Below are positions 269 through 63,779 of a stretch of DNA of 64,000 bases, in pieces. Below the pieces are notes generated by a model, which did no database searches, had not been told where the DNA came from, and was given only the letters and a program-made list of their open reading frames with translations. Source of the DNA: Agelas oroides (lineage: Eukaryota > Porifera > Demospongiae > Agelasida > Agelasidae); NCBI GenBank assembly GCA_949130485.1, contig OX422184.1, positions 22,157,506 to 22,221,505 of the forward strand, written 5' to 3'. The position numbers were made by a program, and so were the translations under genes. Position 1 is the first letter of the stretch. Each line of letters starts with the position of its first letter.

Positions 269-367
269 ATTGTTCTGGGAGTTTAAGTTGGCACCTCGCC
301 CAATCAGTAGTCGTGTTATTTCATAATGGCCATGCACAGATGCAGTCATCAATGGAGACCAACCATC
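269..367 (-). CDS. Ankyrin-repeat exon E1 (single 33-residue repeat)
   Basis: Read on the minus strand this is a 99-bp exon encoding one ankyrin repeat. It begins DGWSPLMTAS, continues HGHYEITRLL and ends GANLNSQNN, matching the family pattern DGxTPLHxAAxxGHxxIVxxLLxxGADVN. The acceptor cctgcag directly precedes the first codon and the donor gtgagt follows the last codon, so both introns are phase 0 and the exon can be inserted or removed without shifting frame. Ankyrin repeats stack as helix-turn-helix units that bind protein partners. The upstream intron flank (368 to about 500) resembles the flank of E2 (14278 to about 14440), including the tails caacccata/caacccaca and ttggtgtctag, so E1 and E2 are duplicates of one exon. 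The host gene continues beyond the window. I cannot tell which full gene it belongs to. Confidence 0.85.
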
Positions 368-510
368 CTGCAGGGTGAACAATACAACCCATAAGTAATC
401 ACATTTTTCTTAGCAGCTATGAGTACGCCCATCTTCTCCAAGTCATTATCATTTGACTACTGCAATGTGATCTCTACTTTTACTTGGTGTCTAGTTTACT
501 GCTATATAAC

Positions 511-700
511 CAGGGTTCTAGGCCTTTAGTGGATGGTTTTGCACCATTTGGTTTATTGCAGCACCGTTTGGAATTGAACAGCACCATTTGGATCACTTCC
601 TAAGTCCAGCCCACAGCAGCTACTAACCTGGCTTCCCACTTAACATTTCAATAGCAGTGAGTATGCATCATTTGGAGGTAAATTCCTAGCAAGAACCCTG
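511..700. mobile_element. 190-bp hAT-like MITE
   Basis: Ends CAGGGTTCTAGG and its near inverse AAGAACCCTG, with 8-bp flanks TATATAAC and CATATAAG (6 of 8 match). CAGGG ends and 8-bp duplications fit the hAT superfamily. The interior has repeats of gcaccatttgg. One-ended inverse copies are at about 9425-9590 (A1) and 60838-60993 (A3). Confidence 0.65.
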
Positions 701-885
701 CATATAAGGTAACATAGACACTTTGTTGTACAAGTCAACCTTTAAGAAACACACATAGGTACACTTTCACAAATGAATGCAAGAGCATTTAATTTGATTT
801 TATTGGAATATACTAAGAAATAATTGCGTTCACAGTGAAATTTCATATTGAGATCACTGGCAAGTAAACGTAACTTTATACCCTC

Positions 886-905
886 ACAATATATATATAT
901 ATATT
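886..905. repeat. TA microsatellite
   Basis: A run of about nine ta units next to an inverted repeat tattatttg/caaataata (902-988). Confidence 0.8.
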
Positions 906-1037
906 ATTTGGTGGGTGAGAGGGCAATATGGCTGGATATTGCACGAGTGTGCGGTCATATTTTCATGAGCCGCACACATCAAATAATAGATTTATTATAT
1001 ACTACTGTGATTTAGCAGCACCTAGAAGATAGACAGC

Positions 1038-1055
1038 TACTGCGCATGCGCAGTA
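1038..1055. promoter_or_regulatory. 18-bp perfect palindrome with NRF-1-like core
   Basis: tactgcgcatgcgcagta is a perfect palindrome whose core TGCGCATGCGCA equals the consensus bound by the NRF-1 family in animals. It directly precedes a 107-codon open frame (1046-1369) that has no recognised domain. It may mark a promoter or simply be repeat-derived. Confidence 0.35.
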
Positions 1056-2570
1056 CAAAGGTCGTTGCTGCGTGCATATTTAATGAGCTTCAGGCTGCTG
1101 GCCTGTTTCTAGCTTTGGACGGCACCAGCACGTGTACCGATCCCTCTACCAGTGGAAGAAAGTACCGTAAGTCAGTAAATAATGCCGTGTTCATCTGTAA
1201 TGAAAGCTTATTCGTTGTTTCAGCAGCGGCTACGAGTGCATTCCAATTAAAGCACACGCCGCGGTTGCTACGCAGCATATGCCCTGGGGGCTATGAAATA
1301 CGGACTATGGAATATGGGAAAATATTTGTCATGTTGCTCTATGGGAAATACTATTGGCGCGTATACTAGGTATATAATATATTCAGGTACGCACATGTAG
1401 TGGGAGGTCATGGTTCAAATATACAATTCATCAAATATGGTAAGAACTCCGGAGAGATTGCTCTTCTACTTCCCTGACCTCCTCAGTGGTGTCAGTACAC
1501 TTGGAAACAATAATGGGAGGATGGGTGCCTAATGTTAGACTTCTGGTGTGATAGCATACAACAGGTAGAAATGAAGTTTCATCTTAACTATCCTCCATGC
1601 AGCTTAGCTGTAATGCTTGAAAGTGCTATCATAGTCTTTTGGTAGGTTTGAAAAATGACTACAATTCTACTTCATTAGTGGACATTACAAGCATTGTCAT
1701 AAAGACCATTCGCATGTTTTGTATTTCATATATACAACAAAGTATTTGATCATTGTACAGTGAAGTTAATAATGACGTGGTACAAATAATCTTCCATGCA
1801 CACGGTATAGGGTGAGGACTTGGAGGAAGGTTTTGTGGAAGCATTCTTGTAATTGGAAAGGAATCGAGAAAGGATACATGAATAGTAAAGGCACAGAACT
1901 CTCGGCTAAAAGCTGAGCGAATGTCTAGAATTGTTTCCAGAGAGAGATAGCAATCTCAGCTCTTTGTTCCAGTGTGGCGAGAAAAGTAGCCTCGTACCCA
2001 GGACGTTCGTAGAAACAATTGCTTCTGTTCTCAGCCTTGCACCGCCGTCCGGTTCATGCATCTGTGTTTACGTAGCACTTCGATTTCCTGGATGGCTTGA
2101 GCGATAGCTGTCAAAGGCACACTCGCTGACAGGCTTCTGTTGGAGTTAGGACGGCTAGATAGTTTGAAGTAGGCCAGACTGAAATGCGGTTCACTCGCTT
2201 TGCACATGAACAATGAAAATTTCACGGTTTTAATTTTCGCAAATGGCTCTTCACTCATGAAAAATGCGAAAATAAATCGCTCGTGAAAATTACCAACCAT
2301 ACGGTATATAAACTCATGATGCTTTAAGTGGAAAGAATAAAACTAAGACTCAGAACAAAAAAGCTGTAAGAGTGCTTGTGTATGCCTACTATTTTAGTGT
2401 TTCTCAACGATCCTTGGGATTTATTCATTTGATATTTTAGCTCTAAGCAGTTACCATTGAAGTATCTATGGTACAAGGACTAAGGCTAAGAGCTAATCCA
2501 TGGTGACCACGTGGAGTTTTTGCCATTAACAAATTGGACCTGTGCAGACGCAGGATTCTATAGAGGCTAA
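1056..2570. other. Unassigned sequence, no supportable gene
   Basis: Presumed intronic. It holds only short open frames and a degraded tagcctcgtacccagg terminus near 1989. I see no splice-bounded coding signal. Confidence 0.5.
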
Positions 2571-2571
2571 A

Positions 2572-3165
2572 CTATCTAGGGTTAGAGCTGTCCTCCCATT
2601 CTACAGTTGGAAGAGATTGATGGTGATTAGCTGTATCTAGCCTAAACAAAATTCTCACCGAACAGTCAACAATGTTGTATACAACATACAAATAGGGAAC
2701 TGGATTGTTCAGTGGGCTACAACAGTACACATCGCTGTTAAAATTACTGTAATTGTGGAGCCTAATTTTCTCATAATGTGCGGAAGTCTCTGGAGGTGGG
2801 GAGGGAGGATATTTCCTGGTCCTGAGTAAAGTGGGGGGTGAGGTGGCGGGTGGAGCTTGGTAGTTTGGGGAAAGGGTCATGAGGAATGTAGGGTCATGAA
2901 TTGGACTGGGACTAGTGTTTGGGACAGGGATTGGATTGGGAGATTAAGATCAGGGGTGGGGTTAAATAATGGGGAGGACGGTTCAGCAGTATGCTAGAGG
3001 TAGAAATATGAATTTGGCTGATGGTTTGAGTTAAAGTGTATGGGTTAAACAATAGGGATGATGGTAGTTGCTTCTGCTAGAGTAAGAAATATGATGGTAT
3101 GGGCTAAATTGTAGGAGAAATGAATGGGGCTAAACTGTAAGGGGAAGGGTCACTAATTCTACACA
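2572..3165 (-). pseudogene. Relative of the Pro/Ser-rich exon, frameshifted
   Basis: A 102-codon open piece (2572-2880) reads SPPPETSAHYEKIRLHNYSN and then SDVYCC, aligning with the Pro-rich, HNY and YDVHSS portion of the 41-kb exon. Further along (2880-3165) the SSIES/LFSPTP region survives as VELV..LPLTV and PLFNPTPD, but in different frames with stops. It may still supply an exon from 2880 down, but as a whole it is broken. Confidence 0.55.
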
Positions 3166-3169
3166 AATT

Positions 3170-4260
3170 GGATTACAAACACAGGAAACCACAAGATTGT
3201 GTCACTAAAGTGTGTGATAACGAGTTCATAATTCATTCCGAATATCTCGGAACTGTATCGCTGATTGGAACCGGATAAGCACTGAACGATTCTGCATGCG
3301 TTGGCCTTTTCGGTGATGTATGATATAAGGCAGTGGTCAAAAATTGCGCTCGCTGTAATAATTTTAGATATCCTTGGTGCACTGCAGGAACAGGTTTTTA
3401 GCGCTATTGCCCAAAGTCTTTATAGCAAGCGCTCGAGCATACATCGCTGCAGATAGAAGAACATAAACAATTTTTTTTCATAATTTTCTGACCATCAAGT
3501 CAGATATTTGGAATGTAGAATTCTTATATAAGCTAAGTTCTAAAAAATGGTTTCTGCTTACTGCATGCTGCTTAAACTACAAACTAGAGATATTCAAACA
3601 GAGCAGTCTTACAGCTTACAAAATGCCAATATTGCTACATAGGTACGGTGTGGAAAAAATGCACATCTTATGACTAGTTGTTCATCCCAGAAGGTTGAAC
3701 CGCCACCTTAATATTGTATAGTGGGTTATTTTCATAAATTACTGGCTGCGGTTTCATACCAGTACTGGGGTCAGCAGAGCGTGGCCAGCGTGTGCCAGCA
3801 CCAGCAAAGCGAAGGCAGAGAACTAGACAGAGTAGAGCGATAAACAGAAGCTTGAGGAAGTGGATTCCGAGAGGCCAGCAGAGTGCAGTCAATGCCTTAC
3901 AACACTAAGGGAGTGACGGCAAAGAGGCTAGCAGAGTGAAGCAAAAAGACAGTGATAGTTAAGTTACTATGCCATGCCATTTTGGTGCTAGGCAACGGCT
4001 GCAAAAATGTTGCTAATCTCCGCAAACCATCAAAAAGCACCACTTTGATATGGTTCGTTCATGCCTGAAGATCACTGACCATGTCTTTCTATATACGTAC
4101 AAGCAAACAAGATTTTCAAGACAAAAGTTTCTAAAAAAATTTAGAGGTGAAGTCTTGCTATTTGTAAATACATTCAAGTGTTGGGAGGTACTTAGTGGTG
4201 TACTGCGCCACATACAAATGTTGATGCATAACAAACAAATAGTGCTGATTACCAACAACA
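3170..4260. repeat. Segmental duplication B1 (partial, more diverged)
   Basis: Matches 30842-31430 and then 31915-32430 of B2 with the intervening part missing. It leads directly into A1. Confidence 0.8.
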
Positions 4261-5308
4261 TTCCTGAACCTCACCTGTGAATACACATGCATTGGTCATG
4301 AAACAAGGGTTCCGTCATATGCACAGAACAGGGATAGGCAACATAACAGCAAAAATTCTGTAGCCCTTGCTAAGGTAATGTGGATGCTCAAGCAACTGAG
4401 TGGGGATGGCAGACACAAACCCAGCTGTGGTTCGTGATTGAGATGATGGATGAAAATTGTACTTTTTATTGATTGGAAGATCACCCTTGACTTTGAACAC
4501 ATTATTATGGGGTGCTAAGAGACTTGGGCGAGCAAAAACTTACAACTCTCGAAAATATGCCCAACCCCCTATTTGAGGAGCATTGGAAGCATGCATTGCA
4601 TGGCGAATGGCATGTTTATAACTGGGCCTGGTATGCAGTGGGCATTAATGATTATTCCAAGGTTTTCATTATACACAAGAACATGGCATGCTGTGGTTTT
4701 GTGGCTTGTAGCATATTAACATCTGACTTGTATGTAACCATGGAAACCTGTCTCAAGTCAGGGTTTCAAATATGGGGGGTGGGGGTGCAATCGCCTCCCC
4801 CCCCCCTTGCCAGAGTCTCACCTCCCCTTGGAAATTAGGTTAGCATTTTTTTCAAGGGGTATGTAATGAATATACAGAACTGAAACTCAACACAAGGAAT
4901 ATACAGCATAAGGTAGCCTGAGGCTATACACAAGGAGAATGTACAGTTTTTAACTTAACAGCTATTCTTCTACTCTTTCTGTTCCACGAATCTACAATGT
5001 CTTCAACGTCACTACCTATAGACAGTGTGCCTGCTTGGGCGTGGTCCATATATTATACATCGATGTGCCAGCGGTGTTGGTGCTCCCCCACTCAACACAC
5101 AACTTCTGAACATGCAGGTACAGATAAAGTCTGTCGGCCCTGCCAAATGGGGAACCCGCAGCATCCTTCAATGGATCCACCCGAAGATGCATGTGTTCTA
5201 ACAACCATAATACCTCAGGCATGCCCTAGACCTAAACAGCATAACAGTGGGCACCAGGCTAGACTTCTCACTGTGCATGAAGGAATATCTCTCCAACAAT
5301 AATTCCTT

Positions 5309-5996
5309 GCCCCAGCCCCATTCCCATTTCCAAAGTTAACCATAGGATACCCCCTTGGTGAAGAGATAATTGAGCCGGAGGCTGAGGTGGTGGATAGTGA
5401 GAGTATCCGCTCAGGCAAAGTGCTTGTACAGTCAACCCACCCAGGACCGCAACCCCGTCCGCAGGGAATCTCCACCTAGCTACCACAGTGTATTTAATTG
5501 CGAGAGGAAGGACAGCTGTAGTCAAAAACACCCCGTCTTTATCCATCTCCACATAGATACATGTATATAAAGTATAAAGCCCTTATCCTAACACAGCCCC
5601 TGATCCAGCCCGTAGAGAAACCTACAGCATGCACACAGAGAGGTTTTAGTATCTGAGCTTACTGTTGTAACTAGGTCACAAGCAAGTCTTCCACAGCTTA
5701 GTCGAATACATCTTTACAACCCCCAGCCCCATTCCCATTCTCCAAAGTTAACCATAGGATACCCACTTGGTGAAGAGATAACTGAGCCGGAGACTGAGGT
5801 GGTGGATAGTGAGAGTATCCGCTCAGGCAAAGTGCTTGTACAGTCAACCCACCCAGGCCTGCAACCCCGTCCGCAGGGGATCTCCACTTAACTACCACAG
5901 TGTATTTAATTGCGAGAGGAAGGACAGCTGTAGTCAAAAAGACCCTGTCTTTATCGTGTATTAAGCATAAAGTATAAAGCCCTTATCCTAACACAC
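5309..5996. repeat. Direct-repeat pair of about 280 bp (A1)
   Basis: 5309-5590 and 5717-5996 share gttaaccataggatacc through cccttatcctaacaca. In both, a plus-strand frame reads KLTIGYPLGEEI, then VVDSESIRSGKVLVQSTHPG, and ends at a stop after GIST. The first is preceded in frame, across one TAA, by a 101-codon frame at 4997-5302 with six cysteines. The same pair occurs in A3 at 56627-57314. It could be a decayed coding element or long terminal repeats of something; I do not recognise it. Confidence 0.7.
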
Positions 5997-6002
5997 TCAC
6001 AC

Positions 6003-6260
6003 TCGTAATTTGAAATGCGAATGAGCTTCACACCCATAACGTAACAGTAGTAACTCAAGTGTGAATGAGCTTCACACTCGTAACGTAACTGTGAGTGAAC
6101 CTCACAGTAGTAACTCAAGTGTGAATGAGCTTCACACCTGTAGCGGAACTGTGAGTGAGCCTCACAGTAGTAATGTTAATTCTAGTGAGCCTCATACCTA
6201 TAGCGCAACTGTGAGAGAGCCTCACAGTGGTTAGTCAAGTGCGAGAGAGCCTGAAAGATA
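6003..6260. repeat. Approximately 60-bp minisatellite in A1
   Basis: Imperfect units built on gaatgagcttcacac and aactgtgagtgagcctcac. Each unit contains its own short inverted repeat (gtgtga/tcacac and ctgtgag/ctcacag). Confidence 0.85.
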
Positions 6261-6894
6261 ACACCGAACAGCCCCAGCCCAACCCTAGCCATAGCTCAGC
6301 CTTACGGAACCGACTATAACCCTAGGCGTACCGTTACTATAGCAAAGCACACGCTATAACTAGCGTAAAGATGCCGTTACAAGGGTAAGTATGCCGTTAC
6401 TAAGAGAAGCACGCTCCCATTTAAAGCCCCCCGACCGCGTCTCACACACAAACTAGTATAGTACTCACCGCAAAAAAGTCGCCACAGCACAGACCCGAGT
6501 GTCCAGCAAAAAAGAGTCTTCAGTACAGAAACGCCTACCGCCGAACAAGCCTCCCAGACGCACGGAACGACAGCGAGTCAGCGAGAGACGGTACGTTGGT
6601 TCGCCCATCCCCCTAGTTAGTGTTATGATAACTCCACCCATTTAGCCCCACCCCCAATTTGCTTAGTAATTAGAATATTCTTAGCTGTGTGAATGCCAAC
6701 CAAGAGCTGGGCTCCTCACTCAAAGCAAGCCTTAGGCGGGGAGTGGTCCCGCCCTTTCTGTAGTAGGCCACGGGTCAGGAGTTCAAAGGGACCAAAACCC
6801 GTGGTCATGCAAGGACCGGAAAGGGTACTCCCCTGAAGACCAGTATTTTTTTTATTTGAGCATATCTCCCAAAAACAGTAACTAACTGCCCCAT

Positions 6895-7015
6895 CCATTT
6901 GAGCCATAAATGCCCCACCCATTTAAGCCATAAATGCCCAACCCATTTAAGTCATAAATGCCCCACCCATTTAAGCCGTAAAAATGCCCCATCCATTTAA
7001 GCCATAAATGCCCCA
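6895..7015. repeat. 24-bp tandem repeat, five units (A1)
   Basis: Repeats of catttaagccataaatgccc with small changes. Confidence 0.9.
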
Positions 7016-7539
7016 TCCCCATCTCCCTTTATGTTTTAACTTCACACTTTATGTATGTGTGAAATTTTGAACATTGATGTGCCAGCGGTGTTGGTGCTCC
7101 CCCACTCTACACACACCTTCCTCTTCATTTCTGACAATTTTTGGGCCTGGTCATTCTCACACACACTTTAGCCATGCAGATAGAAGACTCACAGTGCAGA
7201 CCTACCATACTCTAACTTAGTGTTCACAACAGCTACTGTGGCTACACAGTCTAGGGATTAAGAGATCCAAAACATGAAGCTAGTATGGTGATCTCTGCTC
7301 TCTATATACCACAGTAGCATAGCTTGATCACCCTTGATAGTCATGCATTGTTAGTCCTGTTCCAAGACCATATTGTTTACACTTGCTGGCTGTGAGCAGC
7401 ATGACTTTCTGTCTTGCATATCACCCAGCTTGAGACAGCTTTGAGAAGCTGAGGAAAATTACCATGTTTGTCATGCAACCGGCAGTTAATATGGAACTAC
7501 ACAATTTTCCACTGAGTACATGTGGTGCAATAATAATTA

Positions 7540-7965
7540 CTGTATTGTCCCGGGCAAGCGCCCACCCCCCAATTTCGACTGCTGTATGGTTTTTAGAAGT
7601 CGTTTGTTTAACCGCCAACCACACAAAATTCTTGTGTAATGACTCACAATTTGTTTGTCGCTGAGCTCATGTACTGCGATCATTTTGATGAGCTTCAGGT
7701 GCCACTACAGTTGGCAGCAAGGTTTGCACACACCGGTCATAGCCTCATCTGCTATGTTCTCCTCTAGCAGTGCGATATTCATGTACTGCAGGCAATGAAC
7801 GCTGTGAGCCTTGGAAACGAGACAGCAGGTTGGCCCGTTTTCTAGCACAATACAGCTTTCTACACTGCCATGCTGCCCTCACTTGGCTAAAGGATGAAGC
7901 ATGCGTGAAGCGACAATGTAATAGCTCCTGTCTGATCAGAGTGGGCGCTTGTATGGGGATAGTTA
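7540..7965. mobile_element. Inverted-repeat element carrying an open frame (A1 copy)
   Basis: Ends share gcaagcgcccac and its inverse gtgggcgcttg, next to TA. Its minus-strand frame is closed at 7745 (HSR then stop), unlike the A3 copy. Confidence 0.45.
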
Positions 7966-8879
7966 AAAACATCCAATGCACTCATTCCTGCTTGCTGATA
8001 CCTGCTTGATTATGCTTCTGGTGTCAATCTATACACAAGAACATGCCATGTGGTTTGAACTCTGACTTGCTATGTAAACATGGAAGCCTGTTTCAAGATC
8101 TTTAGCAACCTAGTAACCAGGAATGCTCTTCCCAGATCTTCAATAAGCCAGCATGTGTGATATCCTCCCTAGTACGCTCAATCCTAACTCACCAAGGTCT
8201 ACTGTAAATAGTATGTATAACACTCCACTGGTCACATACACAACATTATATTAGGTCACGGGGGTTCAATATTTGGTCAATGATAGGGCTCAAGCCAGCA
8301 TACCCTTCTGTGTCTTGTGTGTGCAGACTCCCTAAATTGAAAGGACTAGTACACTGTGCCTGTATTGGGCTGTTTGAGATGAAGCTTCACAAGGGTACTT
8401 ACTACCTAACTGGAGGCATGAGGTAAAACAAAGAAGGGGGAAGGTGATGAGGGTTGGTGACAATATCTGACAGCCCAGAGAACTGCAGGTGAACTTGTGT
8501 CCACAATGCTGTATGTGATTATCAGGTGATTTAGTTATGTTGTCTAGCACCTGTACCAGATATATCAATATGGTAAATAACCAAGCCACACAATTAAACT
8601 ATCTAAGTTTAGCTATATTTATGCAGAGGTAAATACTGCATGAGTGTAGGGGTTGTGGGCGACAACTGTCATAAGTCCAAGAAATTATTATTGCTACCCA
8701 CTGGGAATGTCTCTCGTCATGGCTGTACACAGTCATGACTACATAAGTTACTTCCAGTGTGCAATGGTTTTGCTCTAACTGGCCTTGGTAACACAACTTC
8801 AGCTGGTTGCATCTGTTTCAACTATTGTCTTCTCAAAGCCTCACTGCAAACAGATGGTCAGTGACACCAGACTAGACAG

Positions 8880-9110
8880 GCATCATGAGGAATGTTAGGG
8901 CATGTACTGGAATGGGATTAGTCTTGGGGGCAGGGATTGGGTTGGAGAGTTACATCAGGGGTGGGGTTAAATAATGGGGATGGTGGTTCTGGAGAAGGCT
9001 AGAGAGATATGAGTCTGGCTGATGGTTGAGGTTGTAAGGAAAGGGATTGGTACTAGAGAGTAAGAGGAAGGATACGGTTACTATTTCCACACTACTAGTA
9101 GTATGTGGCA
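8880..9110 (-). pseudogene. Decayed Pro/Ser-rich exon in A1
   Basis: On the minus strand the anchor reads SSVEIVTVS, followed after a frame change by PLFNPTPDVTLQPNP and a stop. It corresponds to the ISSIESV and LFSPTP parts of the 41-kb exon. The SH3-ligand part is not preserved. Confidence 0.5.
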
Positions 9111-11094
9111 TAACAATTTTATTGGATGTTCAGAGTGGTGGGTATGGCAATTATGCTGTCATTCTGTAAGACTATGAAATGGATTGTCTCAGAGAATTGA
9201 CGTGAGAAGGCTTGGTACTTTGACAAGACATTTGTCAGGGTAGTTCAATTGTGTCATCATCTTTATGATGTAACGGTGAACATCAGGGGAGATTTGTTCA
9301 GAAAAATTGAAGAACCGTACAATCCACAGTTGTATATAGCACTGTGATTTGTTCAATCACTAGCTATAAATCTACTTTCAAATGGTGCATAGCACAATAG
9401 GCAGGTATGAAACACCCTCTCTACATACTACTATTGAAATGTTAAGTGGGAAGCCAGGACAGCAACTGCTATGGGCAGGGTTTAGGAAGTGATCCAAATG
9501 GTGCTCTTACATAAATTCACCACATTCAAATGGTGCTCCAATTAACCAAATGGTGCAAAACCATCCACTAAAGGTCTAGCGAGAACCCTGCCTACTGCCG
9601 TCTGCACTCAATCTTTAGCATCACTGAATGTTGACCGAAAATGGCCACGTGACCAACCGCTCCAACAGCTATACGCAGCTCGTCGCACAATGTTGTCATC
9701 ATCCCGATTGTATAGCCAGCTTCCGTGAAGTAGCATCACTCCATTGTTGCCTGAGCTCCAGTATATTGCTGCAGCTGCTCCTGGGACAGTTTGCTACTGC
9801 TATTCACACTTACTGGCTGATGGGTACTTATTCATAGGGTTCTTAGGCTCAAGGGGGTACTACTATTCAGGAAATTGATAGCAAACACTTTGATAGGTAC
9901 TTATATTCATAGGGTACCTGTGATTGATGGGTACTTACACTGCAGAGGTAATTACAGTGACATAATATCCTGTATCAGCTTGCTCAGGCTTGCCCCCACA
10001 ATGTTCTACATTTTCTAGTGTATAGTTGGGGCGAGCCTGAGCGAGCCCCACACCAGCGGGACCGCATTGCGCAGGTGATCACATGATTTTTATATTGTAG
10101 CCAGTGATGGCCAAGCCAATTTCAGCAAAAATCTATTTTTAGCATCTTAGCCACCAAATTTTCTTCTTATGCGATAAAGCACATCCTCTTCACTAAGAAT
10201 CCTGGATGGGAAAATACAAATCGATTCGCTTTTGGAGAAAACCGTGACTTTCTATTTGGTGGCTCACCATTAAAATGATGTTTTTGGCCATAATTGATTT
10301 CGTACAGCATGGTTTTGCTTCTCACGCAGGATCTTGGTAATATCAACCACTTACCCATTTCAACCTTACATCTAAAGGAAAAGAAATCGTTATTTTGGCA
10401 ATGTATTTTTAGTCACTCTTTGGAAATAGCGATGTCATAATTGGTCACATGATTATGAAAGTGGACATGGCAATAAAGTAAATGATATGTTTTCTGTCCA
10501 AATTCAGATTACGTATGCTAAGTGGAAAGAAAGTTACGGAAACTTCCTACTTTTGTTCTCCACTCGTGCCATACACCTGTGTATGCCAAAGACCCCAAAG
10601 TAGCAGACATAGATCAACTAGGTTTGAGGAACAAGTGGAGCATAATGGGAGCAATGCAAGAATGATAATTTAAAGTGAATTTCACGGAAGTTTCCTAAAA
10701 GCATAACTTGGGCCAAAATTTGAAGCATAATAGACTCAGGCTATAGATGTGCAAAGTTAACATACCATGGTGATAATTAGAGCAATTTGTCAAATGTAAC
10801 AATGAGGCAGATAGATTTCTAATTGACACCAAACAAGTGGTTAATTACACCCTCACAATATATTCAGCCATACCTTGAGGCTTCACCCTGGATATTGACC
10901 ATAAATCTCCTTGGCTACCATAAAAAATGAATCTGTTCATATACAAGATTAATCCGTAGGCATGAGAATATTATGCCTATAATATCATTCTATGCTCTTA
11001 TGCTCAAACAATGTGATGATTGTCCTGTTAACCCTTTGAACGCGATAGGCTTATATATATATGCCTAATCTTTACTTCCCGTGAGTATGAACGG

Positions 11095-11533
11095 TAGCCT
11101 CGTTCCCAGGCCCTCGCCCAGCTTCCCGTCGCTTGCAGCACGGTAAAGCGGGAGAGGGCCTGGTACATTTCCTCACGTGAGTGACGTCACGGACAGGGCA
11201 AATTATGTGAACGTGGGCGTCATGTAAACCACAAAAAACTTTGCCCGCACGCACGCACTGGAGCACGACTATTCCGAGTCGAAAGATGGCAGCACATGAA
11301 GGCGCTTTTATGTCGCTCTTCACGAGACAGTCGGGAGGACAGAGAGTTTTACCAAGCCAAGATAGTGAAGACACACAGCAACAATTTAGTCATGCTCGCC
11401 CACGTTCAATTAAAGTCTTTCTACCGCCTTTCTACCCGTGATGTCACTCATGTGAGGAAATGTACCAGGCCCTCTCCCGCTTTACCGTACTGCAAGCGAC
11501 GGGAAGCTGGGTGAGGGCCTGGGAACGAGGCTA
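11095..11533. mobile_element. Long-inverted-repeat element with 9-bp target duplication (A1)
   Basis: Ends TAGCCTCGTTCCCAGGC and its inverse, with inverted arms of about 100 bp running through a gtgacgtcac/gtgatgtcac segment. The flanks TATGAACGG (11086-11094) and CATGAACGG (11534-11542) match the empty site CATGCACGG in A2 (47873-47881). Long terminal inverted repeats with 9-bp duplications fit Mutator-like (MULE) non-autonomous elements (inference). Confidence 0.85.
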
Positions 11534-12164
11534 CATGAACGGTGTATTTATACACCTGCATTACATTTGGGCCCCTACCATGTGAAGAAGCAAAGCCAAG
11601 CAGCTCATGAGGGTACATCCTTTCCTATTTAGTGGTAACTGTTGAGGCCACACCTTTTCACTTACATCACTATCCAGGAAAAGCAGAAAGGGGCGGTAGT
11701 CTCACAAGCCAGACCTAGTGCGGATCGCTTTCAGTATAACGCACGGTGCTGGGGTTGGTTGGGTCTGGCTTGCGAGAGTAGAAGGGGTGGTACTACTTTG
11801 TGAGTGTGATTTGCCCAAGGGCTGCCAAACACGAAGCTTTTTCTCAAATGAGGGAAGCAAATGACCTCCAGTTTTCACATATGACAGAAGTACTACCTTC
11901 AAATAACTTAGAAATTGGCTGAATCTGTTGGGGCTATGGGTATCAAGTGGGAAAATTGGCACTATTTCAAAGTGCTGGTAAGTTACGAGTATAGTCACAC
12001 ATAAATGGCTTCAAACAAGAGGAAATAGCTTACTTAGCAGTGGTCAGTAACTTAGATAAACTAGTCCACCCTAGTTACACGCCACTTTTATGCAAATCAG
12101 GCAACTGGCTAAGCCTAGCGCTTGCTTAGCATGCTTGACACTTTGGTGCCTTTCAATTGAAGTC

Positions 12165-48716: not shown

Positions 48717-48788
48717 CTGTGAATACAAGGGATGCAGAACAAATTGCTGGTAATTCTCACTGTTTTACAAACCCTCACACTGTCTGCT

Positions 48789-52290: not shown

Positions 52291-52449
52291 TTTTAAGTTA
52301 CCTGGGAGTGGGGCAGTTATGATTAAATAGGTGGAGCATTTGTGATGGGCAGTGATGGTTATGTGGGTGGATATATCAGTTCCCAGTATCATTTAGATAC
52401 GTATGTTCAAAAAAACACTGGCCTTCGGTGTAGTACCCTTTCTGATCAT

Positions 52450-54660
52450 TGCATGGGGATTGAGGTGATGAGGGTTGGTTCCTTGACAAAGGTTTCAAAA
52501 TTCTGACATCACTTCTGTGACAGAGCAGTGAACACAATGAAAAGTGGAGGAGATCAGTTAAAGAAAATTGAAGAACTAAACATTTTGCATCACATCCATG
52601 AATCCACAGTGATGCACAACAGTAGCTAGCTAGCTAGCAAGTTAATCCACAGCACTAGTTGTTACCAAAGGTGCATCAAGCTGCCAAAGGCGAGACTACT
52701 TGTTACCAAGGGTGCATCAAGCTGCCAAAGGCGGCTCGATGCACCTTTGATGTCAAATTATCACTGATTCAAAAGATTCACTCTTTTGAAAAGGAAGCTA
52801 GGCAGCTGGCTAGCTATATATAGGCACAGCATTACTACAAGTATCAATACAGTATTCAACTACCTGAACAGTGTTTCACTTAGAAGAAAGTGTTTGAAAG
52901 TGAAAGTGTTTGGAAATTGCACAGCAGAAAGCACTTTGTGACACTCTGCTTTTGGCTCCGTGCACTTTGCTAATTAGAGAACACCAAGCTTCTAGTTGGG
53001 TGCGGCTGATGAGTTAGCTCTTAGTTTATTACGCTACTAGTATAGAATAATTTGTGATTAAACAAATTTCTATCCCTTCGGAGGAAAGCTAGACTGCTTG
53101 GGGGAAGTTTCCCCCCTTCCCCCACCTGTAGGTTAAACCCTGCCAAACTACTCAAAACTGGAACTGAGAAGCTTGGATTCACCCTATCTCTGGCGGTACT
53201 AGACAGCTAGCCCTCAGGCATGTCAATAGCTTGATTTGGGACTAGTAGTAAAGCTAAGCAAGGCTACCTCAACAGTCATAACCACAGAACTACTGGAGCT
53301 AGACTCCTCATGCAAACCTTACAGAAATTAATAAAAGGCAGCTGAACATCTTTGTGGAGCCAAGGTAATTGTTTACAGTATCATTTGTCTATGCATTTCT
53401 GTTCCATGCCTGAATAGATGTAAGCCATGCCTGTTCCATGCATGGAATGGTAGACTCATGCAGACTTAGTGGAGCAAAGGTAATTTTTTAGAGTAACATG
53501 TGTCCACACTTGGCTGTTCCATCTATTTCATGCATAAAGTTACACATGAACTTATGTATGAAGAGAACCATACCTGTATTATGCATGGCACAGGAGAATG
53601 ATGAATGGAACGTGCATGGAATCGTAGATTCGTGTAGTGCATGCATTACGCATGATACATGTATGGATCAACCACACTATAGGTGCACATGTGCAGTTTA
53701 GCATTAATCCAATGGATATGGATTACTCACAGACGTACAAACAATACATTCCATAGTCCTACCGTAATGTAATAATGATCAATGCCCACTCAATACACAA
53801 GAACATGCCATGCTGTGCTGTTGTGGTTTTGTAGCTTATTAACCTCTGACCAGCTGCGCAAACTTGGAACTGTCCCAAGATCTTTCCTTAACCACTTCCC
53901 AGCTTTTAATATACCACTATGTCATTACCACCTCGTATTACATAAGCTCCCAAAAGGTAAAAGTTGGGAGAAGGTGTATGCTCAAATATTCAATTAGCAT
54001 CGTTCATACACCCCACACCCCACCAGGTTCCTCGTGATGTTACACACAAGAACAAAAATCACGACGGCTTCTGTGACTATCTGGAAGAATGGCAGCTTAG
54101 CCAAAGTGTACTACGGAAACTCACTGACACTTGTATATATACTAAGCCGAGAAGTATTGAAGTAACTTGCTTCATCAGTGGTGACATAGAAGGACCCTGT
54201 GTAAGCTTGTACTGCAAACAAAAATGACACTTGCTATGGGGTATTTACACAAGCAAGAAATACTTATGCAAGGGTTAGGAGGGCATTTGCAAAGAAGCAA
54301 GCACAGCAAAGTAGACAGCGATAGGGAAGTCACTATGCCATCTGATTTTGGTGCTAGTCAAAGGTTGTAAAACCTCACTAATGTCCACAAACCCATCAAA
54401 AACACACTCGTACACCCTTGGGTACAAACTCTGGGAAGCAATCTGATCAACACAGTACATCACTATCTTCAAGGCATCTTGGGTGCAAACTCTGGGAAGC
54501 AATCTGATCAACACAGTACACCACTAAGTACCTCCCAACACTTGAATGTGTTTACAAATAGCAGGGCTTCACCTCTACGAATTAGAAACTATTGTCTTGA
54601 AAATCTTGTTTGCTTGTGTGTACATGTATTGTCTGGTATGTACATTTATTGTTGTTAATG
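52450..54660. repeat. Segmental duplication C3 (5' truncated)
   Basis: Begins with ggggattgaggtgatgag, equivalent to 41805 in C2, and runs into A3. It contains small local duplications near 52690 (about 37 bp) and 54410-54520. Confidence 0.85.
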
Positions 54661-55315
54661 ATGTATAGCAAACAAAATAGTGCTGATTAGCAACAACATT
54701 CCTGAACCTCACCTCTGAATACACATACATTGGTCATGAAACAAGGGTTCCATCATATGCACAGAACAGGGATAGGCAACATAATAGGAAAAATTCTGTA
54801 GCCCTTGCTAAGGTCATGTGGATGCTCAAGCAACTGAGTGGGGATGGCAGACACAAACCCAGCTGTGGTCCGTGATTGAGATGATGGATGAAAATTGTAC
54901 TTTTTATTGATTGGAAGATCACCCTTGACTTTGAACACATTAACATGGGGTGCTAGGAGACTTGGGCGAGCAAAAACTTACAACTCTCGAAAATATGCCC
55001 AACCCCCTATTTGAGGAGCATTGGAAGCATGCATTGCATGGCGAATGGCATGTTTATAACTGGGCCTGGTATGCAGTGGGCATTAATGATTATTCCAAGG
55101 TTTTCATTATACACAAGAACATGGCATGCTGTGGTTTTGTGGCTTGTAGCATATTAACATCTGACTTGTATGTAACCATGGAAACCTGTCTCAAGTCAGG
55201 GTTTCAAATACGGGGGGTGGGGGTGCAATCGCCTCCCCCCCCCCCTTGCCAGAGTCTCACCTCCCCTTGGAAATTAGGTTAGCATTTTTTTCAAGGGGTA
55301 TGTAATGAATATACA

Positions 55316-56192
55316 CTCAGGCGCGTTAAGGACTGGGTCCAGCTGTTTTGCGCGCGCTGCCTAAATTACCCTTGAGGCGGGCGTTATCTTACCATAAACA
55401 GGAAGGCGGTTGTATCTATGTAAACAATGCGGAACCTTGGAATGCAATTAAGTACCTTCGCTATCACTGTACGGATGGACCGTTCTAGGCGTGTACTCTT
55501 CCTAACGGTCTTGTTCTTACCTAAACGTGATGCGATACGCACGTCTGTAACACTAAAAGTCATTCTAGAAAGCGCTTCCAGCAATTTTCAAAGTGTCTGT
55601 AGTGGAGTCACGTGCACCATGTACGGTAGCACGTGCCAGCTACTCTTGAATAAGCCGCATAATGGCCGCTTGGCAGCTCTTTTTCCGGAAGTAACTCATG
55701 CGGAATTCTACAGAAGAGAGCTGGAGTGTACTATTGGGTTTGATGGAGAAGAAATCTAATTGTCTTTGATTTCACCGTGGGAAAAGTTCGTAGCTTACCG
55801 CTAAAGGTACGAAGTGAAGCTTTAAATGCCCGGTGGGCGTGGCATATTTGCCAGTTCTAGCGCTCTAGAAAGCGACATCGACTATTCCCACGGATAAAAA
55901 GTTGGGCCAGTTGAAATAGAACGTATTGGTGCAAAAAGAATCGTGAAATTTTGCTCGCGCGAATTCCGCATATCACGTTTATTGCATTGATATACCCTGA
56001 GGGAGGGGCTTGGTACAGCTAAGTTGTTTGTGGGCGGGGCCTAAAATTATGTCCCAGTAAACAATAAGGGTGGGGCTACATGTAACAATACTAAACAACT
56101 ACTTTAAGCATCTTCATTTGTCATAAAGTTGATTCAAATTTTGCCATAATATAGCCTCAGAAGCCCTGGACCCAGTCCTTAATGCCCCTGAG
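55316..56192. mobile_element. 877-bp inverted-repeat element with CA target duplication, A3 only
   Basis: The start CTCAGG, then GTTAAGGACTGGGTCCAG; the end is the inverse (CTGGACCCAGTCCTTAA, then CCTGAG). CA flanks both sides (55314-55315, 56193-56194), and A1 has one CA at the empty site (4875-4876). It holds a 110-codon open frame (55427-55759) without a recognisable transposase motif. I cannot assign a superfamily. Confidence 0.85.
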
Positions 56193-57317
56193 CAGAACTG
56201 AAACTCAACACAAGGAATATACAGCATAAGGTAGCCTGAGGCTATACACAAGGAGAATGTACAGTTTTTAACTTAACAGCTATTCTTCTACTCTTTCTGT
56301 TCCACGAATCTACAATGTCTTCAACGTCACTACCTATAGACAGTGTGCCTGCTTGGGCGTGGTCCATATATTATACATCGATGTGCCAGCGGTGTTGGTG
56401 CTCCCCCACTCAACACACAACTTCTGAACATGCAGGTACAGATAAAGTCTGTCGGCCCTGTCAAATGGGGAACCCGCAGCATCCTTCAATGGATCCACCC
56501 GAAGACGCATGTGTTCTAACAACCATAATACCTCAGGCATGCCCTAGACCTAAACAGCATAACAGTGGGCACCAGGCTAGACTTCTCACTGTGCATGAAG
56601 GAATATCTCTCCAACAATAATTCCTTGCCCCAGCCCCATTCCCATTTCCAAAGTTAACCATAGGATACCCCCTTGGTGAAGAGATAATTGAGCCGGAGGC
56701 TGAGGTGGTGGATAGTGAGAGTATCCGCTCAGGCAAAGTGCTTGTACAGTCAACCCACCCAGGACCGCAACCCCGTCCGCAGGGAATCTCCACCTAGCTA
56801 CCACAGTGTATTTAATTGCGAGAGGAAGGACAGCTGTAGTCAAAAACACCCCGTCTTTATCCATCTCCATATAGATACATGTATATAAAGTATAAAGCCC
56901 TTATCCTAACACAGCCCCTGATCCAGCCCGTAGAGAAACCTACAGCATGCACACAGAGAGGTTTTAGTATCTGAGCTTACTGTTGTAACTAGGTCACAAG
57001 CAAGTCTTCCACAGCTTAGTCGAATACATCTTTACAACCCCCAGCCCCATTCCCATTCTCCAAAGTTAACCATAGGATACCCCCTTGGTGAAGAGATAAC
57101 TGAGCCGGAGACTGAGGTGGTGGATAGTGAGAGTATCCGCTCAGGCAAAGTGCTTGTACAGTCAACCCACCCAGGCCTGCAACCCCGTCCGCAGGGGATC
57201 TCCACTTAACTACCACAGTGTATTTAATTGCGAGAGGAAGGACAGCTGTAGTCAAAAAGACCCTGTCTTTATCGTGTATTAAGCATAAAGTATAAAGCCC
57301 TTATCCTAACACACTCA

Positions 57318-57622
57318 CACTCGTAATTTAAAATGTGAATGAGCTTCACACCCATAACGTAACAGTAGTAACTCAAGTGTGAATGAGCTTCACACTCGTA
57401 ACGTAACTGTGAGTGTCACAGTAGTAACTCAAGTGTGAATGAGCTTCACACTCGTAACGTAACTGTGAGTGAACCTCACAGTAGTAACTCAAGTGTGAAT
57501 GAGCTTCACACCCGTAGCGGAACTGTGAGTGAGCCTCACAGTAGTAATGTTAATTCTAGTGAGCCTCAGACCTATAGCGCAACTGTGAGAGAGCCTCACA
57601 GTGGTTAGTCAAGTGCGAGAGA
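57318..57622. repeat. Approximately 60-bp minisatellite in A3, one extra unit
   Basis: Same array as at 6003 but with one additional unit near 57377-57430, showing change in copy number since the A1/A3 split. Confidence 0.85.
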
Positions 57623-58267
57623 GCCTGAAAGATAACACCGAACAGCCCCAGCCCAACCCTAGCCATAGCTCAGCCTTACGGAACCGACTATAACCCTAGG
57701 CGTACCGTTACTATAGCAAAGCACACGCTATAACTAGCGTAAAGATGCCGTTACAAGGGTAAGTATGCCGTTACTAAGAGAAGCATGCTCCCATTTAAAG
57801 CCCCCCAACCGCGTCTCACACACAAACTAGTATAGTACTCACCGCGAAAAAGTCGCCACAGCACAGACCCGAGTGTCCAGCAAAAGAGTCTTCAGTACAG
57901 AAACGCCTACCGCCGAACAAGCCTCCCAGACGCACGGAACGACAGCGAGTAAGCGAGAGACGGTACGTTGGTTCGCCCATCCCCCTAGTTAGTGTTATGA
58001 TAACTCCACCCATTTAGCCCCACCCCCAATTTGCTTAGTAATTAGAATATTCTTAGCTGTGTGAATGCCAACCAAGAGCTGGGCTCCTCACTCAAAGCAA
58101 GCCTTAGGCGGGGAGTGGTCCCGCCCTTTCTGTAGTAGGCCACGGGTCAGGAGTTCAAAGGGACCAAAACCCGTGGTCATGCGAGGACCGGAAAGGGTAC
58201 TCCCCTGAAGACCAGTATTTTTTTTTATTTGAGCATATCTCCCAAAAACAGTAACTAACTGCCCCAT

Positions 58268-58412
58268 CCATTTGAGCCATAAATGCCCCACCCATTTAAG
58301 CCATAAATGCCCAACCCATTTAAGTCATAAATGCCACACCCATTTAAGCCATAAATGCCCCACCCATTTAAGCCGTAAAAATGCCCCATCCATTTAAGCC
58401 ATAAATGCCCCA
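58268..58412. repeat. 24-bp tandem repeat, six units (A3)
   Basis: Same array as 6895-7015 with one additional unit. Confidence 0.9.
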
Positions 58413-58940
58413 TCCCCATCTCCCTTTATGTTTTAACTTCACACTTTATGTATGTGTGAAATTTTGAACATTGATGTGCCAGCGGTGTTGGTGCTCCCCC
58501 ACTCTACACACACCTTCCTCTTCATTTCTGACAATTTTTGGGCCTGGTCATTCTCACACACACTTTAGCCATGCAGATAGAAGACTCACAGTGCAGACCT
58601 ACCATACTCTAACTTAGTGTTCACAACAGCTACTGTGGCTACACAGTCTAGGGATTAAGAGATCCAAAACATGAAGCTAGTATGGTGATCTCTGCTCTCT
58701 ATATACCACAGTAGCATAGCTTGATCACCCTTGATAGTCATGCATTGTTAGTCCTGTTCCAAGACCATATTGTTTACACTTGCTGGCTGTGAGCAGCATG
58801 ACTTTCTGTCTTGCATATCACCCAGCTTGAGACAGCTTTGAGAAGCTGAGGAAAATTACCATGTTTATCATGCAACTGGCAGTTAATATGGAACTACACA
58901 ATTTTCCACTGAGTACATGTGGTGCAATAATAATTACTGT

Positions 58941-59367
58941 ATTGTCCCGGGCAAGCGCCCACCCCCCAATTTCGACTGCTCTATGGTTTTTAGAAGTCGT
59001 TTGTTTAACCGCCAACCACACAAAATTCTTGTGTAATGACTCACAATTTGTTTGCCGCTGAGCTCATATACATAGCTGCGATCATTTTGATGAGCTTCAG
59101 GTGCCACTGCAGTCGGCAGCAAGGTTTGCACACACCGGTCATAGCCTCGTCCGCTATGTTCTCCTCTAGCAGTGCGATATTCATGTACTGCAGGCAATGA
59201 ACGCTGTGAGCCTTGGAAACGAGACAGCAGGTTGGCCCGTTTTCTAGCACAATACAGCTTTCTACACTGCCATGCTGCCCTCACTTGGCTAAAGGATGAA
59301 GCATGCGTGAAGCGACAATGTAATAGCTCCTGTCTGATCAGAGTGGGCGCTTGTATGGGGATAGTTA
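58941..59367 (-). mobile_element. Inverted-repeat element with a 149-codon open frame (A3 copy)
   Basis: Same element as 7540-7965. On the minus strand the frame 59383-58934 stays open for 149 codons across the whole element (MHWMFLTIP... to ...GRLPGTIQ). I recognise no domain. It is probably an accident of a short low-divergence element, or a fragment of captured sequence. Confidence 0.4.
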
Positions 59368-60284
59368 AAAACATCCAATGCACTCATTCCTGCTTGCTGA
59401 TACCTGCTTGATTATGCTTCTGGTGTCAATCTATACACAAGAACATGCCATGTGGTTTGAACTCTGACTTGCTATGTAAACATGGAAGCCTGTTTCAAGA
59501 TCTTTAGCAACCTAGTAACCAGGAATGCTCTTCCCAGATCTTCAATAAGCCAGCATGTGTGATATCCTCCCTAGTACGCTCAATCCTAACTCACCAAGGT
59601 CTACTGTAGATAGTATGTATAACACTCCACTGGTCACATACACAACATTATATTAGGTCACGGGGGTTCAATATTTGGTCAATGATAGGGCTCAAGCCAG
59701 CATACCCTTCTGTGTCTTGTGTGTGCAGACTCCCTAAATTGAAAGGACTAGTACACTGTGCCTGTATTGGGCTGTTTGAGATGAAGCTTCACAAGGGTAC
59801 TTACTACCTAACTGGAGGCATGAGGTAAAACAAAGAAGGGGGAAGGTGATGAGGGTTGGTGACAATATCTGACAGCCCAGAGAACTGCAGGTGAACTTGT
59901 GTCCACAATGCTGTATGTGATTATCAGGTGATTTAGTTATGTTGTCTAGCACCTGTACCAGATATATCAATATGGTAAATAACCAAGCCACACAATTAAA
60001 CTATCTAAATTTAGCTATATTTATGCACAGGTAAATACTGCATGAGTGTAGGGGTTGTGGGCGACAACTGTCATAAGTCCAAGAAATTATTATTGCTACC
60101 CACTGGGAATGTCTCTCATCATGGCTGTACACAGTCATGACTACATAAGTTACTTCCAGTGTGCAATGGTTTTGCTCTAACTGGCCTTGGTAACACAACT
60201 TCAGCTGGTTGCATCTGTTTCAACTATTGTCTTCTCAAAGCCTCACTGCAAACAGATGGTCAGTGACACCAGACTAGACAGGCA

Positions 60285-60520
60285 TCATGAGGAATGTTAG
60301 GGCATGTACTGGAATGGGATTAGTCTTGGGGGCAGGGATTGGGTTGGAGAGTTACATCAGGGGTGGGGTTAAATAATGGGGATGGTGGTTCTGGAGAAGG
60401 CTAGAGAGATATGAGTCTGGCTGATGGTTGAGGTTGTAAGGAAGGGGATTGGCACTAGAGAGTAAGAGGAAGGATACGGTTACTATTTCCACACTACTAG
60501 TAGTATGTGGCATAACAATT
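60285..60520 (-). pseudogene. Decayed Pro/Ser-rich exon in A3
   Basis: Duplicate of the relic at 8880-9110, nearly base-for-base the same. Confidence 0.45.
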
Positions 60521-62506
60521 TTATTGGATGTTCAGAGTGGTGGGTATGGCAATTATGCTGTCATTCTGTAAGACTATGAAATGGATTGTCTCAGAGAATT
60601 GACGTGAGAAGGCTTGGTACTTTGACAAGACATTTGTCAGGGTAGTTCAAATTGTGTCATCATCTTTATGAGGTAACGGTGAACATCAGGGGAGATTTGT
60701 TCAGAAAAATTGAAGAACCGTACAATCCACAGTTGTATATAGCACTGTGATTTGTTCAATCACTAGCTATAAATCTACTTTCAAATGGTGTATAGCACAA
60801 TAGGCAGGTATGAAACACCCTCTCTACATACTACTATTGAAATGTTAAGTGGGAAGCCAGGACAGCAACTGCTATGGGCAGGGTTTAGGAAGTGATCCAA
60901 ATGGTGCTCTTACATAAATTCACCACATTCAAATGGTGCTCCAATTAACCAAATGGTGCAAAACCATCCACTAAAGGTCTAGCGAGAACCCTGCCTACTG
61001 CCGTCTGCACTCAATCTTCAGCATCACTGAATGTTGACCGAAAATGGCCACGTGACCAACCGCTCCAACAGCTATACGCAGCTCGTCGCACAATGTTGTC
61101 ATCATCCCGATTGTATAGCCAGCTTCCGTGAAGTAGCATCACTCCATTGTTGCCTGAGCTCCAGTATATTGCTGCAGCTGCTCCTGGGACAGTTTGCTAC
61201 TGCTATTCACACTTACTGGCTGATGGGTACTAATATTCATAGGGTTCTTATGCTCAAGGGGGTACTACTATTCAGGAAATTGATAGCAAACACTTTGATA
61301 GGTACTTATATTCATAGGGTACCTGTGATTGATGGGTACTTACACTGCAGAGGTAATTACAGTGACATAATATCCTGTATCAGCTTGCTCAGGCTTGCCC
61401 CCACAATGTTCTACATTTTCTAGTGTATAGTTGGGGCGAGCCTGAGCGAGCCCCACACCAGCGGGACCGCATTGCGCAGGTGATCACATGATTTTTATAT
61501 TGTAGCCAGTGATGGCCAAGCCAATTTCAGCAAAAATCTATTTTTAGCATCTTAGCCACCAAATTTTCTTCTTATGCGATAAAGCACATCCTCTTCACTA
61601 AGAATCCTGGATGGGAAAATACAAATCGATTCGCTTTTGGAGAAAACCGTGACTTTCTATTTGGTGGCTCACCATTAAAATGATGTTTTTGGCCATAATT
61701 GATTTCGTACAGCATGGTTTTGCTTCTCACGCAGGATCTTGGTAATATCAACCACTTACCCATTTCAACCTTACATCTAAAGGAAAAGAAATCGTTATTT
61801 TGGCAATGTATTTTTAGTCACTCTTTGGAAATAGCGATGTCATAATTGGTCACATGATTATGAAAGTGGACATGGCAATAAAGTAAATGATATGTTTTCT
61901 GTCCAAATTCAGATTACATATGCTAAGTGGAAAGAAAGTTACGGAAACTTCCTACTTTTGTTTTCCACTCGTGCCATACACCTGTGTATGCCAAAGACCC
62001 CAAAGTAGCAGACATAGCTCAACTAGGTTTGAGGAACAAGTGGAGCATAATGGGAGCAATGCAAGAATGATAATTTAAAGTGAATTTCACGGAAGTTTCC
62101 TAAAAGCATAACTTGGGCCAAAATTTGAAGCATAATAGACTCAGGCTATAGATGTGCAAAGTTAACATACATGTGTGGTGCCATGGTGATAATTAGAGCA
62201 ATTTGTCAAATGTAACAATGAGGCAGATAGATTTCTAATTGACACCAAACAAGTGGTTAATTACACCCTCACAATATATTCAGCCATACCTTGAGGCTTC
62301 ACCCTGGATATTGACCATAAATCTCCTTGGCTACCATAAAAAATGAATCTGTTCATATTCAAGATTAATCCGTAGGCATGAGAATATTATGCCTATAATA
62401 TCATTCTATGCTCTTATGCTCAAACAATGTGATGATTGTCCTGTTAACCCTTTGAACGCGATAGGCATACATATGCCTAATCTTTACTTCCCGTGAGTAT
62501 GAACGG

Positions 62507-62944
62507 TAGCCTCGTTCCCAGGCCCTCGCCCAGCTTCCCGTCGCTTGCAGCACGGTAAAGCGGGAGAGGGCCTGGTACATTTCCTCACGTGAGTGACGTC
62601 ACGGACAGGGCAAATTATGTGAACGTGGGCGTCATGTAAACCACAAAAAACTTTGCCCGCACGCACGCACTGGAGCACGATATTCCGAGTCGAAAGATGG
62701 CTGCACATGAAGGCGCTTTTATGTCGCTCTTCACGAGACAGTCGGGAGGACAGAGAGTTTTACCAAGCCAAGATAGTGAAGACACACAGCAACAATTTAG
62801 TCATGCTCGCCCACGTTCAATTAAAGTCTTTCTACCGTCTTTCTACCCGTGATGTCACTCACGTGAGGAAATGTACCAGGCCCTCTCCCGCTTTACCGTA
62901 CTGCAAGCGACGGGAAGCTGGGTGAGGGCCTGGGAACGAGGCTA
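62507..62944. mobile_element. Long-inverted-repeat element with 9-bp target duplication (A3)
   Basis: The same insertion as 11095-11533, inherited through the A1/A3 duplication, with the same flanking TATGAACGG/CATGAACGG. Confidence 0.85.
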
Positions 62945-63628
62945 CATGAACGGTGTATTTATACACCTGCATTACATTTGGGCCCCTACCATGTGAAGAA
63001 GCAAAGCCAAGCAGCTCATGAGGGTACATCCTTTCCTATTTAGTGGTAACTGTTGAGGCCACACCTTTTCACTTACATCACTATCCAGGAAAAGCAGAAA
63101 GGGGCGGTAGTCTCGCAAGCCAGACCTAGTGCGGATCGCTTTCAGTATAACGCACGGTGCTGGGGTTGGTTGGGTCTGGCTTGCGAGAGTAGAAGGGGTG
63201 GTACTACTTTGTGAGTGTGATTTGCCCAAGGGCTGCCAAACACGAAGCTTTTTCTCAAATGAGGGAAGCAAATGACCTCCAGTTTTCACATATGACAGAA
63301 GTACTACCTTCAAATAACTTAGAAATTGGCTGAATCTGTTGGGGCTATGGGTATCAAGTGGGAAAATTGGCACTATTTCAAAGTGCTGGTAAGTTACGAG
63401 TATAGTCACACATAAATGGCTTCAAACAAGAGGAAATAGCTTACTTAGCAGTGGTGAGTAACTTAGATAAACTAGTCCACCCTAGTTACACGCCACTTTT
63501 ATGCAAATCAGGCAACTGGCTAAGCCTAGCGCATGCTTAGCATGCTTGACACTTTGGTGCCTTTCAATTGAAGTCGGATAAAAAATTGCCAACAGTACCT
63601 TTCGAGTGTTTCTGCATTTAAGCCACAC

Positions 63629-63667
63629 AAACGTGATCCTCCAGCATAGCACTGGAGGATCACGTTT
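63629..63667. repeat. Perfect 16-bp hairpin beside exon E6
   Basis: aaacgtgatcctccag, loop catagca, then the exact inverse. In A2 the right arm is nearly the same but the left arm differs (ccaactgactccatgc), so the hairpin is specific to A3. Confidence 0.85.
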
Positions 63668-63680
63668 AACATCATCTCAC

Positions 63681-63779
63681 CTCTTTCTGTTGGTTTACAT
63701 CAGCTCCATTTTTCAATAGGTAGGCAACAACATTTTGATGACCTCGCCAGCTGGCAAGGTACAGTGCACTCTGGCCAGT
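63681..63779 (-). CDS. Ankyrin-repeat exon E6 (copy in duplication A3)
   Basis: 99-bp minus-strand exon: starts TGQSALYLAS, centre WRGHQNVVAYLL, end GADVNQQKE. The acceptor is ttcacag and the donor gtgaga, phase 0. By my count it differs from E5 at 14 of 99 bases and 7 of 33 residues, with six changes packed in nine adjacent bases around AK to WR. A perfect 16-bp hairpin lies 13 bases beyond its donor (63629-63667). It is the most 5' ankyrin exon seen if all belong to one minus-strand gene. Confidence 0.87.

Follow-up and report, generated by a model that had tools for sequence, protein, structure and literature searches.

Single-repeat ankyrin exons within an array of copied ~15 kb cassettes in the sponge Agelas oroides

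In vertebrates, ankyrin genes contain many exons of 99 bp, and a canonical ankyrin (ANK1/2/3) has ZU5-UPA and death domains behind its 24 ANK repeats. Expansion of domain repeats by exon duplication was reportedly treated by Street et al. (J Mol Biol, 2006). Ankyrin arrays are known to vary in repeat number, and the underlying DNA events are hard to see from proteins. Here we describe a 64,000-nucleotide stretch of the sponge Agelas oroides (contig OX422184.1, positions 22,157,506 to 22,221,505; hereafter the window, numbered from its first letter) with six single-repeat ankyrin exons on its minus strand, in which scars in the introns are still visible: a ~15 kb cassette, its junctions, and an exon missing through a small deletion. 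With a probability of roughly 0.6, we read the window as the inner stretch of one large minus-strand ankyrin-repeat gene whose repeats are gained and lost via recombination between homologous introns; we infer from the window's genomic DNA that a single gene spans all six exons. If this is true, repeat gain and loss could be read event by event and tested in a population.

The locus resembles the one-repeat-per-exon genes of the canonical ankyrins in carrying 33-residue repeats on single exons, and the product of the six joined exons has ankyrin-1 as its best relative among solved structures. It differs in that the intervals between the exons are copies of each other. A Pfam scan of the window's minus strand (all three frames, cut into overlapping pieces, stops written as X, E ≤ 0.05) showed none of the ankyrin tail domains; they may lie beyond the window. 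In PMC1553488, intron recombination is proposed as a route by which repeats may spread, though not as one that explains all repeats, and the locus shares with that account whole repeats on phase-compatible exons: all six exons here are symmetric whole-repeat exons, and the flanking introns are homologous, with 25-96% of each interval covered by such similarity. What differs from that account is that an intron of ~15 kb accompanies each 99 bp exon and that the intron homology is still visible. A further likeness is to the spider MaSp2 silk genes, whose iterated introns, according to PMC9779670, are highly similar within a gene and may steer recombination; as described there, the MaSp2 introns are small and homogenisation extends to the coding units, whereas the intervals here are 7-15 kb long and the exons are far more diverged than the intron patches. 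A literature search turned up no case of this kind among the matches listed (titles and abstract openings, with subscription journals mostly outside its coverage).

The six ankyrin exons lie at 63681-63779 (A63), 48618-48716 (A48, identical to A63 at 85 of 99 nucleotides), 35001-35099 (A35), 21531-21629 (A21), 14179-14277 (A14), and 269-367 (A0.3), all on the minus strand; each is exactly 99 bp long and in phase 0/0, is preceded by AG and followed by GT, and encodes one 33-residue repeat. When 2266 stop-to-stop frames of at least 20 residues were searched with a generic ankyrin seed, six minus-strand matches came up at E ≤ 3.6e-4 (next match, E 4.6), and Pfam Ank (PF00023) scores 28.4-35.6 bits in all six of the open reading frames (ORFs) concerned, above its curated cut-off of 21.1, with E 3.5e-8 for the ORF of A63. 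These are the places at which a preliminary description of this DNA, made from its letters alone, had put ankyrin exons, and the lengths and phases bear out its view that an extra repeat is neutral to the reading frame. The names DUF7217 and TraI_2, which appear beside Ank in two of these ORFs, are at chance level and below cut-off. A profile built from the six exons scores 59-68 bits at those same six, by construction, and finds no seventh ankyrin exon in the window, intact or decayed: the next place reaches 0.3 bits, against up to 3.4 bits in five shuffles of two-base chunks and values below 0 in the reversed window. The six share one register as well as one phase, which would permit consecutive repeats in a single polypeptide. 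Joined in genomic order, the exons form a continuous array (180 bits with six stretches for PF00023, 185 bits for PF12796); this does not prove splicing, because any exon order would keep the register. We take the six retained exons to be old: apart from A48 and A63 they share 39 to 64 of 99 sites. Nonsynonymous divergence (dN) is lower than synonymous divergence (dS) in 13 of 13 computable pairs, dS being saturated in the other 2 of 15.

Direct copies dominate the self-comparison of the window, with 247 direct pairs (57149 aligned bp) versus 59 inverted ones (6420 bp). From A63 to A0.3, consecutive exons are separated by 14964, 13518, 13371, 7253, and 13811 bp (intervals 1 to 5), and 96, 58, 64, 25, and 73% of these lengths, respectively, is covered by direct similarity to other intervals when direct pieces of at least 100 bp and at least 65% similarity are counted. 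With interval 1 (48717-63680) as the reference, the cassette has the order ANK exon, Pro element a, segment H, segment E with Pro element b, and segment F; the Pro elements, which accompany proline-rich (Pro-rich) DNA, are taken up below. The reference cassette, with A63, occupies 49202-64000, and it and the copies that follow are on the minus strand. A copy with A48 spans 40112-48716: the first 8.6 kb of interval 2 are nearly in reference order, with main pieces at 88-96% and two out-of-order pieces at 73 and 79%, and beyond 8.6 kb the interval is scrambled (63-89%, some pieces inverted). In interval 3, an F segment at 29447-33204, 98% identical to 49202-52455 in two pieces, directly abuts an E-like segment (84%) at 29447, and a second copy of E comes later at 22727-25176, at 84-93% to 52459-54980 and with one inverted piece (24710-24851). 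Interval 4 shows four short matches to the reference and no more. Interval 5 begins with a cassette end, continues with a cassette start that has no ANK exon, and then follows the reference order toward A0.3 in pieces of 76-98%, one of them inverted; the cassette copy with the missing exon, at 1518-12245, is largely collinear with 49326-64000 and 98% identical over its longest piece.

The unit of duplication is read from this map as a block of ~15 kb, not as a small pair of one ankyrin exon and one Pro-rich exon. The proposal that a cassette with an ankyrin exon and Pro-rich DNA was duplicated repeatedly thus stands as regards the array of direct copies, and falls short as regards the cassette, which is several times larger than the proposed pair. 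It had been argued from the alternating order of the two kinds of exon, as unlike independent placement; the naive probability of no two adjacent ankyrin exons is indeed small (0.016 with seven Pro-rich units, 0.028 with eight), but it is not an independent test, since the units are copies of one another, and the cassette map is the better evidence for duplication. Two local tandem structures were seen within interval 2, namely a 124 bp repeat in four copies 97% alike (37388-37893) and, inside its segment E, a 331 bp tandem duplication with a 99% match (42491-43163).

The clearest scar is at 12.17 kb, where a deleted ankyrin exon had been suspected and is now borne out. Positions 4875-12170 match 56193-63581 at 98%, and positions 12169-12245 match 63924-64000 at 100%; the 342 bp in between, present with their ANK exon at 63582-63923, are missing at the minus-strand deletion junction 12169-12170, and in our reading of the printed alignment TT is common to both flanks. 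Loss of an exon at this place would be the simpler reading, because the copy at 48.6 kb has the ANK exon. At 29447, where F meets E, lies a second cassette boundary with no ANK exon, and a third is possible near 40 kb, in the scrambled stretch. That extra ankyrin repeats are simply tolerated, as had been supposed, is not what these boundaries indicate: the best-documented recent cassette copy is without its ANK exon, and there is none at the 29447 junction.

The same pair of copies (4222-12245 and 54659-64000) might instead be alternative haplotypes of a single locus that ended up in the same contig, part of the pattern then being an assembly artefact and the presence or absence of the ANK exon a polymorphism. 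Of 16 full 500 bp bins, the first holds 13 substitutions and each of the other 15 between 1 and 7, the latter a divergence also seen among alleles in many invertebrates; gaps run to about 880 columns. We nevertheless regard an artefact as quite improbable: the copies have the same orientation and are separated by 51 kb, their 98% similarity ends on the left at 4222/54659, and divergence in the main pieces of the other cassette copies is 4-12%, presumably too much for alleles in most species, so that the array itself would remain. Between the two copies, minisatellites (30/60 bp and 24 bp units; 6044-6241, 57362-57615, 6883-7015, and 58256-58412) differ in copy number. Both copies also hold an identical plus-strand ORF of 126 residues (4922-5302 and 56240-56620) with no domain at or above cut-off.

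Across the array, intervals whose flanking exons share 41-57 of 99 sites have intron patches of 1.8-7.4 kb in common that are 88-98% alike; for the longest patch, of 7.4 kb, the exon belonging to the copy is missing. Old, diverged ANK exons beside patches of this similarity suggest that the exchange of intron blocks came after the divergence of most exons, or that the accompanying exons were lost. In the large-gene reading that we favour, the six exons would be spliced in genomic order into one continuous ankyrin solenoid, the long homologous introns would be the templates for unequal crossing-over or gene conversion, and each intronic exchange would add or remove whole 33-residue repeats with the frame unchanged; selection would retain the old, diverged exons, and some newly copied ones would be deleted. 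Duplication of ankyrin units is proposed in PMC7314423 to depend on identity between existing copies, and we would add that homologous introns could supply that identity here. A stricter version has some chance of being right, if a rather small one: concerted evolution of one gene's introns with the ANK exons shielded from it, blocks being copied and homogenised, new ANK exons being removed or diverging fast, and repeat number and identity being held constant by selection.

The most similar exon pair does not lead us to claim diversifying selection on the ankyrin surface. Aligned without gaps, A48 and A63 differ at 14 of 99 sites, and their near flanks differ at 27 of 420 (Fisher p 0.02). The gapped alignment behind the flank counts gives 10 differing sites of 97 in the exon plus four gap columns, with which the test would lose force; in the farther flank, 47873-48399, it gives 14 of 513. 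Twelve of the 14 exon differences are packed into 37 bp, 48659-48695 (p 0.0016), and seven residues are changed, two of them at positions that we take to be among those randomised in DARPins. We make no claim of selection, since conversion by an unseen ANK exon would account for this clustering.

Beside the Pro-rich DNA, nhmmer detects the core of the Pro element in eight copies, all on the minus strand, at 107-332 bits, and blastn also shows Pro-element copies. The core model was built from seven of the eight, the match at 9.2 kb being the only one independent of it, and five shuffles gave nothing above 6.8 bits. Subtype a comprises the cores at 60496-60759 (193 bits), 45500-45759 (189 bits), and 9094-9356 (193 bits; the copy outside the model), which are 96-100% alike, and subtype b those at 52455-52652 (207 bits), 41691-42000 (332 bits), and 22610-22911 (311 bits; most of the Pro-rich part seen at 41.3 kb is absent there), which are 95% alike; the core at 27629-27938 (284 bits) is nearer to b, and a truncated one at 18149-18297 (107 bits) is nearest to the 27.8 kb core over the columns of useful number. 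Intervals 1 and 2 each have an a core and then a b core, interval 3 has two b-like cores, interval 4 one, and interval 5 an a core together with coreless Pro-rich DNA at 2.8 kb, so that three of the five intervals hold two cores. Related DNA is thus present where Pro-rich exons had been listed, with the additions that the cores at 52.6 and 22.75 kb had gone unlisted and that the 2.8 kb place is a Pro-rich part without a core. As to signs of a transposable element, all eight cores share one orientation within longer copied DNA, and Pfam detects no transposase domain on the minus strand. No relatives elsewhere were confirmed in viral_contigs or genome_contigs, whose viruses and prokaryotes say little on this point; five pattern matches in viral_contigs are unconfirmed, and a pattern used in both collections fits just two of the eight cores in the window itself.

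The Pro-rich stretches look like repeated intronic DNA rather than protein-coding parts, and as part of a repeated intronic element they would be passengers that travel with the copied block. At the nine Pro-rich places, the longest minus-strand frame is 37 to 67 residues in seven, 285 residues at 41.3 kb (40774-41631, the sole long proline- and serine-rich ORF, possibly coding), and 123 residues at 2.8 kb (2572-2943); among 1000 local simulations, 123 residues were reached in 17 and 285 in none, the maximum being 233. The length of the 41.3 kb ORF leaves some room for the idea that each cassette consisted of an ANK exon and a Pro-rich exon whose copies decayed after duplication, as does a match of its translation to the 2.8 kb region at 30.8 bits without composition correction, versus at most 28.5 in ten shuffles. 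We find this idea, which was that of the preliminary description, very doubtful. Ten stop triplets, with every frame represented, are common to the Pro-rich copies at 60.4, 45.4, and 9.0 kb, whose adjoining cores are 96-100% identical. The only close copy of the 41.3 kb ORF, at 22.4-22.6 kb, differs from it in the well-aligned part by gaps of 9 bp and 4 bp, the latter shifting the frame, and by three substitutions, of which two are non-synonymous in our reading of the printed alignment (few changes, and weak power). With this frame-shifting gap and no synonymous excess, coding is not demonstrated for the 41.3 kb ORF, and as a repeated feature it appears to behave as intronic DNA. Its codon-position composition is also unlike that of the ANK exons, a weak point in that domain type also shapes composition. 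It has no solved structure at E ≤ 1 and nothing in Pfam at cut-off (RhoGAP_pG1_pG2, E 0.28, is at chance level). In the frame before this ORF, at about 41400-41580 on the minus strand, a tyrosine-rich translation stays open for ~50 residues across the ORF start.

Overall, then, what had been observed holds for the ankyrin places, the deleted exon, and the Pro-rich places, with an incomplete list of cores and no long ORF at most Pro-rich places; of the interpretation, cassette duplication and frame neutrality are supported, and Pro-rich exon decay and simple tolerance of extra repeats are not.

Outside the ankyrin exons, the copied DNA carries no clear coding signature. In the three minus-strand frames, no Pfam models other than Ank appear at E ≤ 0.05, and their matches are all at the six exons; the other ORFs have no domain at or above cut-off, the names Amelogenin, HlyIII, MEA1, and Toxin_8 (E 0.02-0.05, in two of ten further ORFs) being below cut-off and at chance level. 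On the plus strand, nothing reaches cut-off in the parts scanned, namely seven ORFs, a single frame of 50000-64000, and two frames of 35000-49997/49998. No RNA family reaches its gathering score in the window. Among 160 stop-free windows with at least 8 differences between copies, one has a low dN/dS (below 0.3 with at least 5 synonymous changes), and it overlaps A48; 11 of 13 jointly open stretches of at least 60 codons lack a notable third-position excess, in tests whose power is low where copies are 98% alike.

These results bear on whether the window is a tandem array of separate genes, each with a small number of ANK exons plus others that lack a known domain. We consider such an array unlikely, and the separate small genes offered earlier as the alternative likewise look less likely now, given the missing further domains and coding signature: no cassette holds more than one ANK exon, and according to PMC7314423 ankyrin proteins need several repeats for a stable fold, single repeats not being expected to fold alone. 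The cassettes are nevertheless long enough for genes, and several observations weigh against one large gene. The 41.3 kb ORF, longer than chance, could be a real exon, and in an array of genes a terminal one. At 3240-3419 on the minus strand, 60 codons are open in two segment-F comparisons (copies at 30.8-31.4 and 50.6-51.2 kb) with codon-position differences of 6, 2, 8 and 5, 2, 6, a possible weak coding signal. Neither a first nor a last exon of a gene was found within the window, and exon density in a single gene would be low, at 594 bp in 64 kb. Moreover, intervals 2 to 4 map onto the reference cassette in scrambled order, and the 7.3 kb interval 4 has only 25% coverage.

Two imperfect palindromes were also seen in the self-comparison, at 12884-13142 and 46304-46436, which are 76% and 85% identical to their own reverse complements, respectively.

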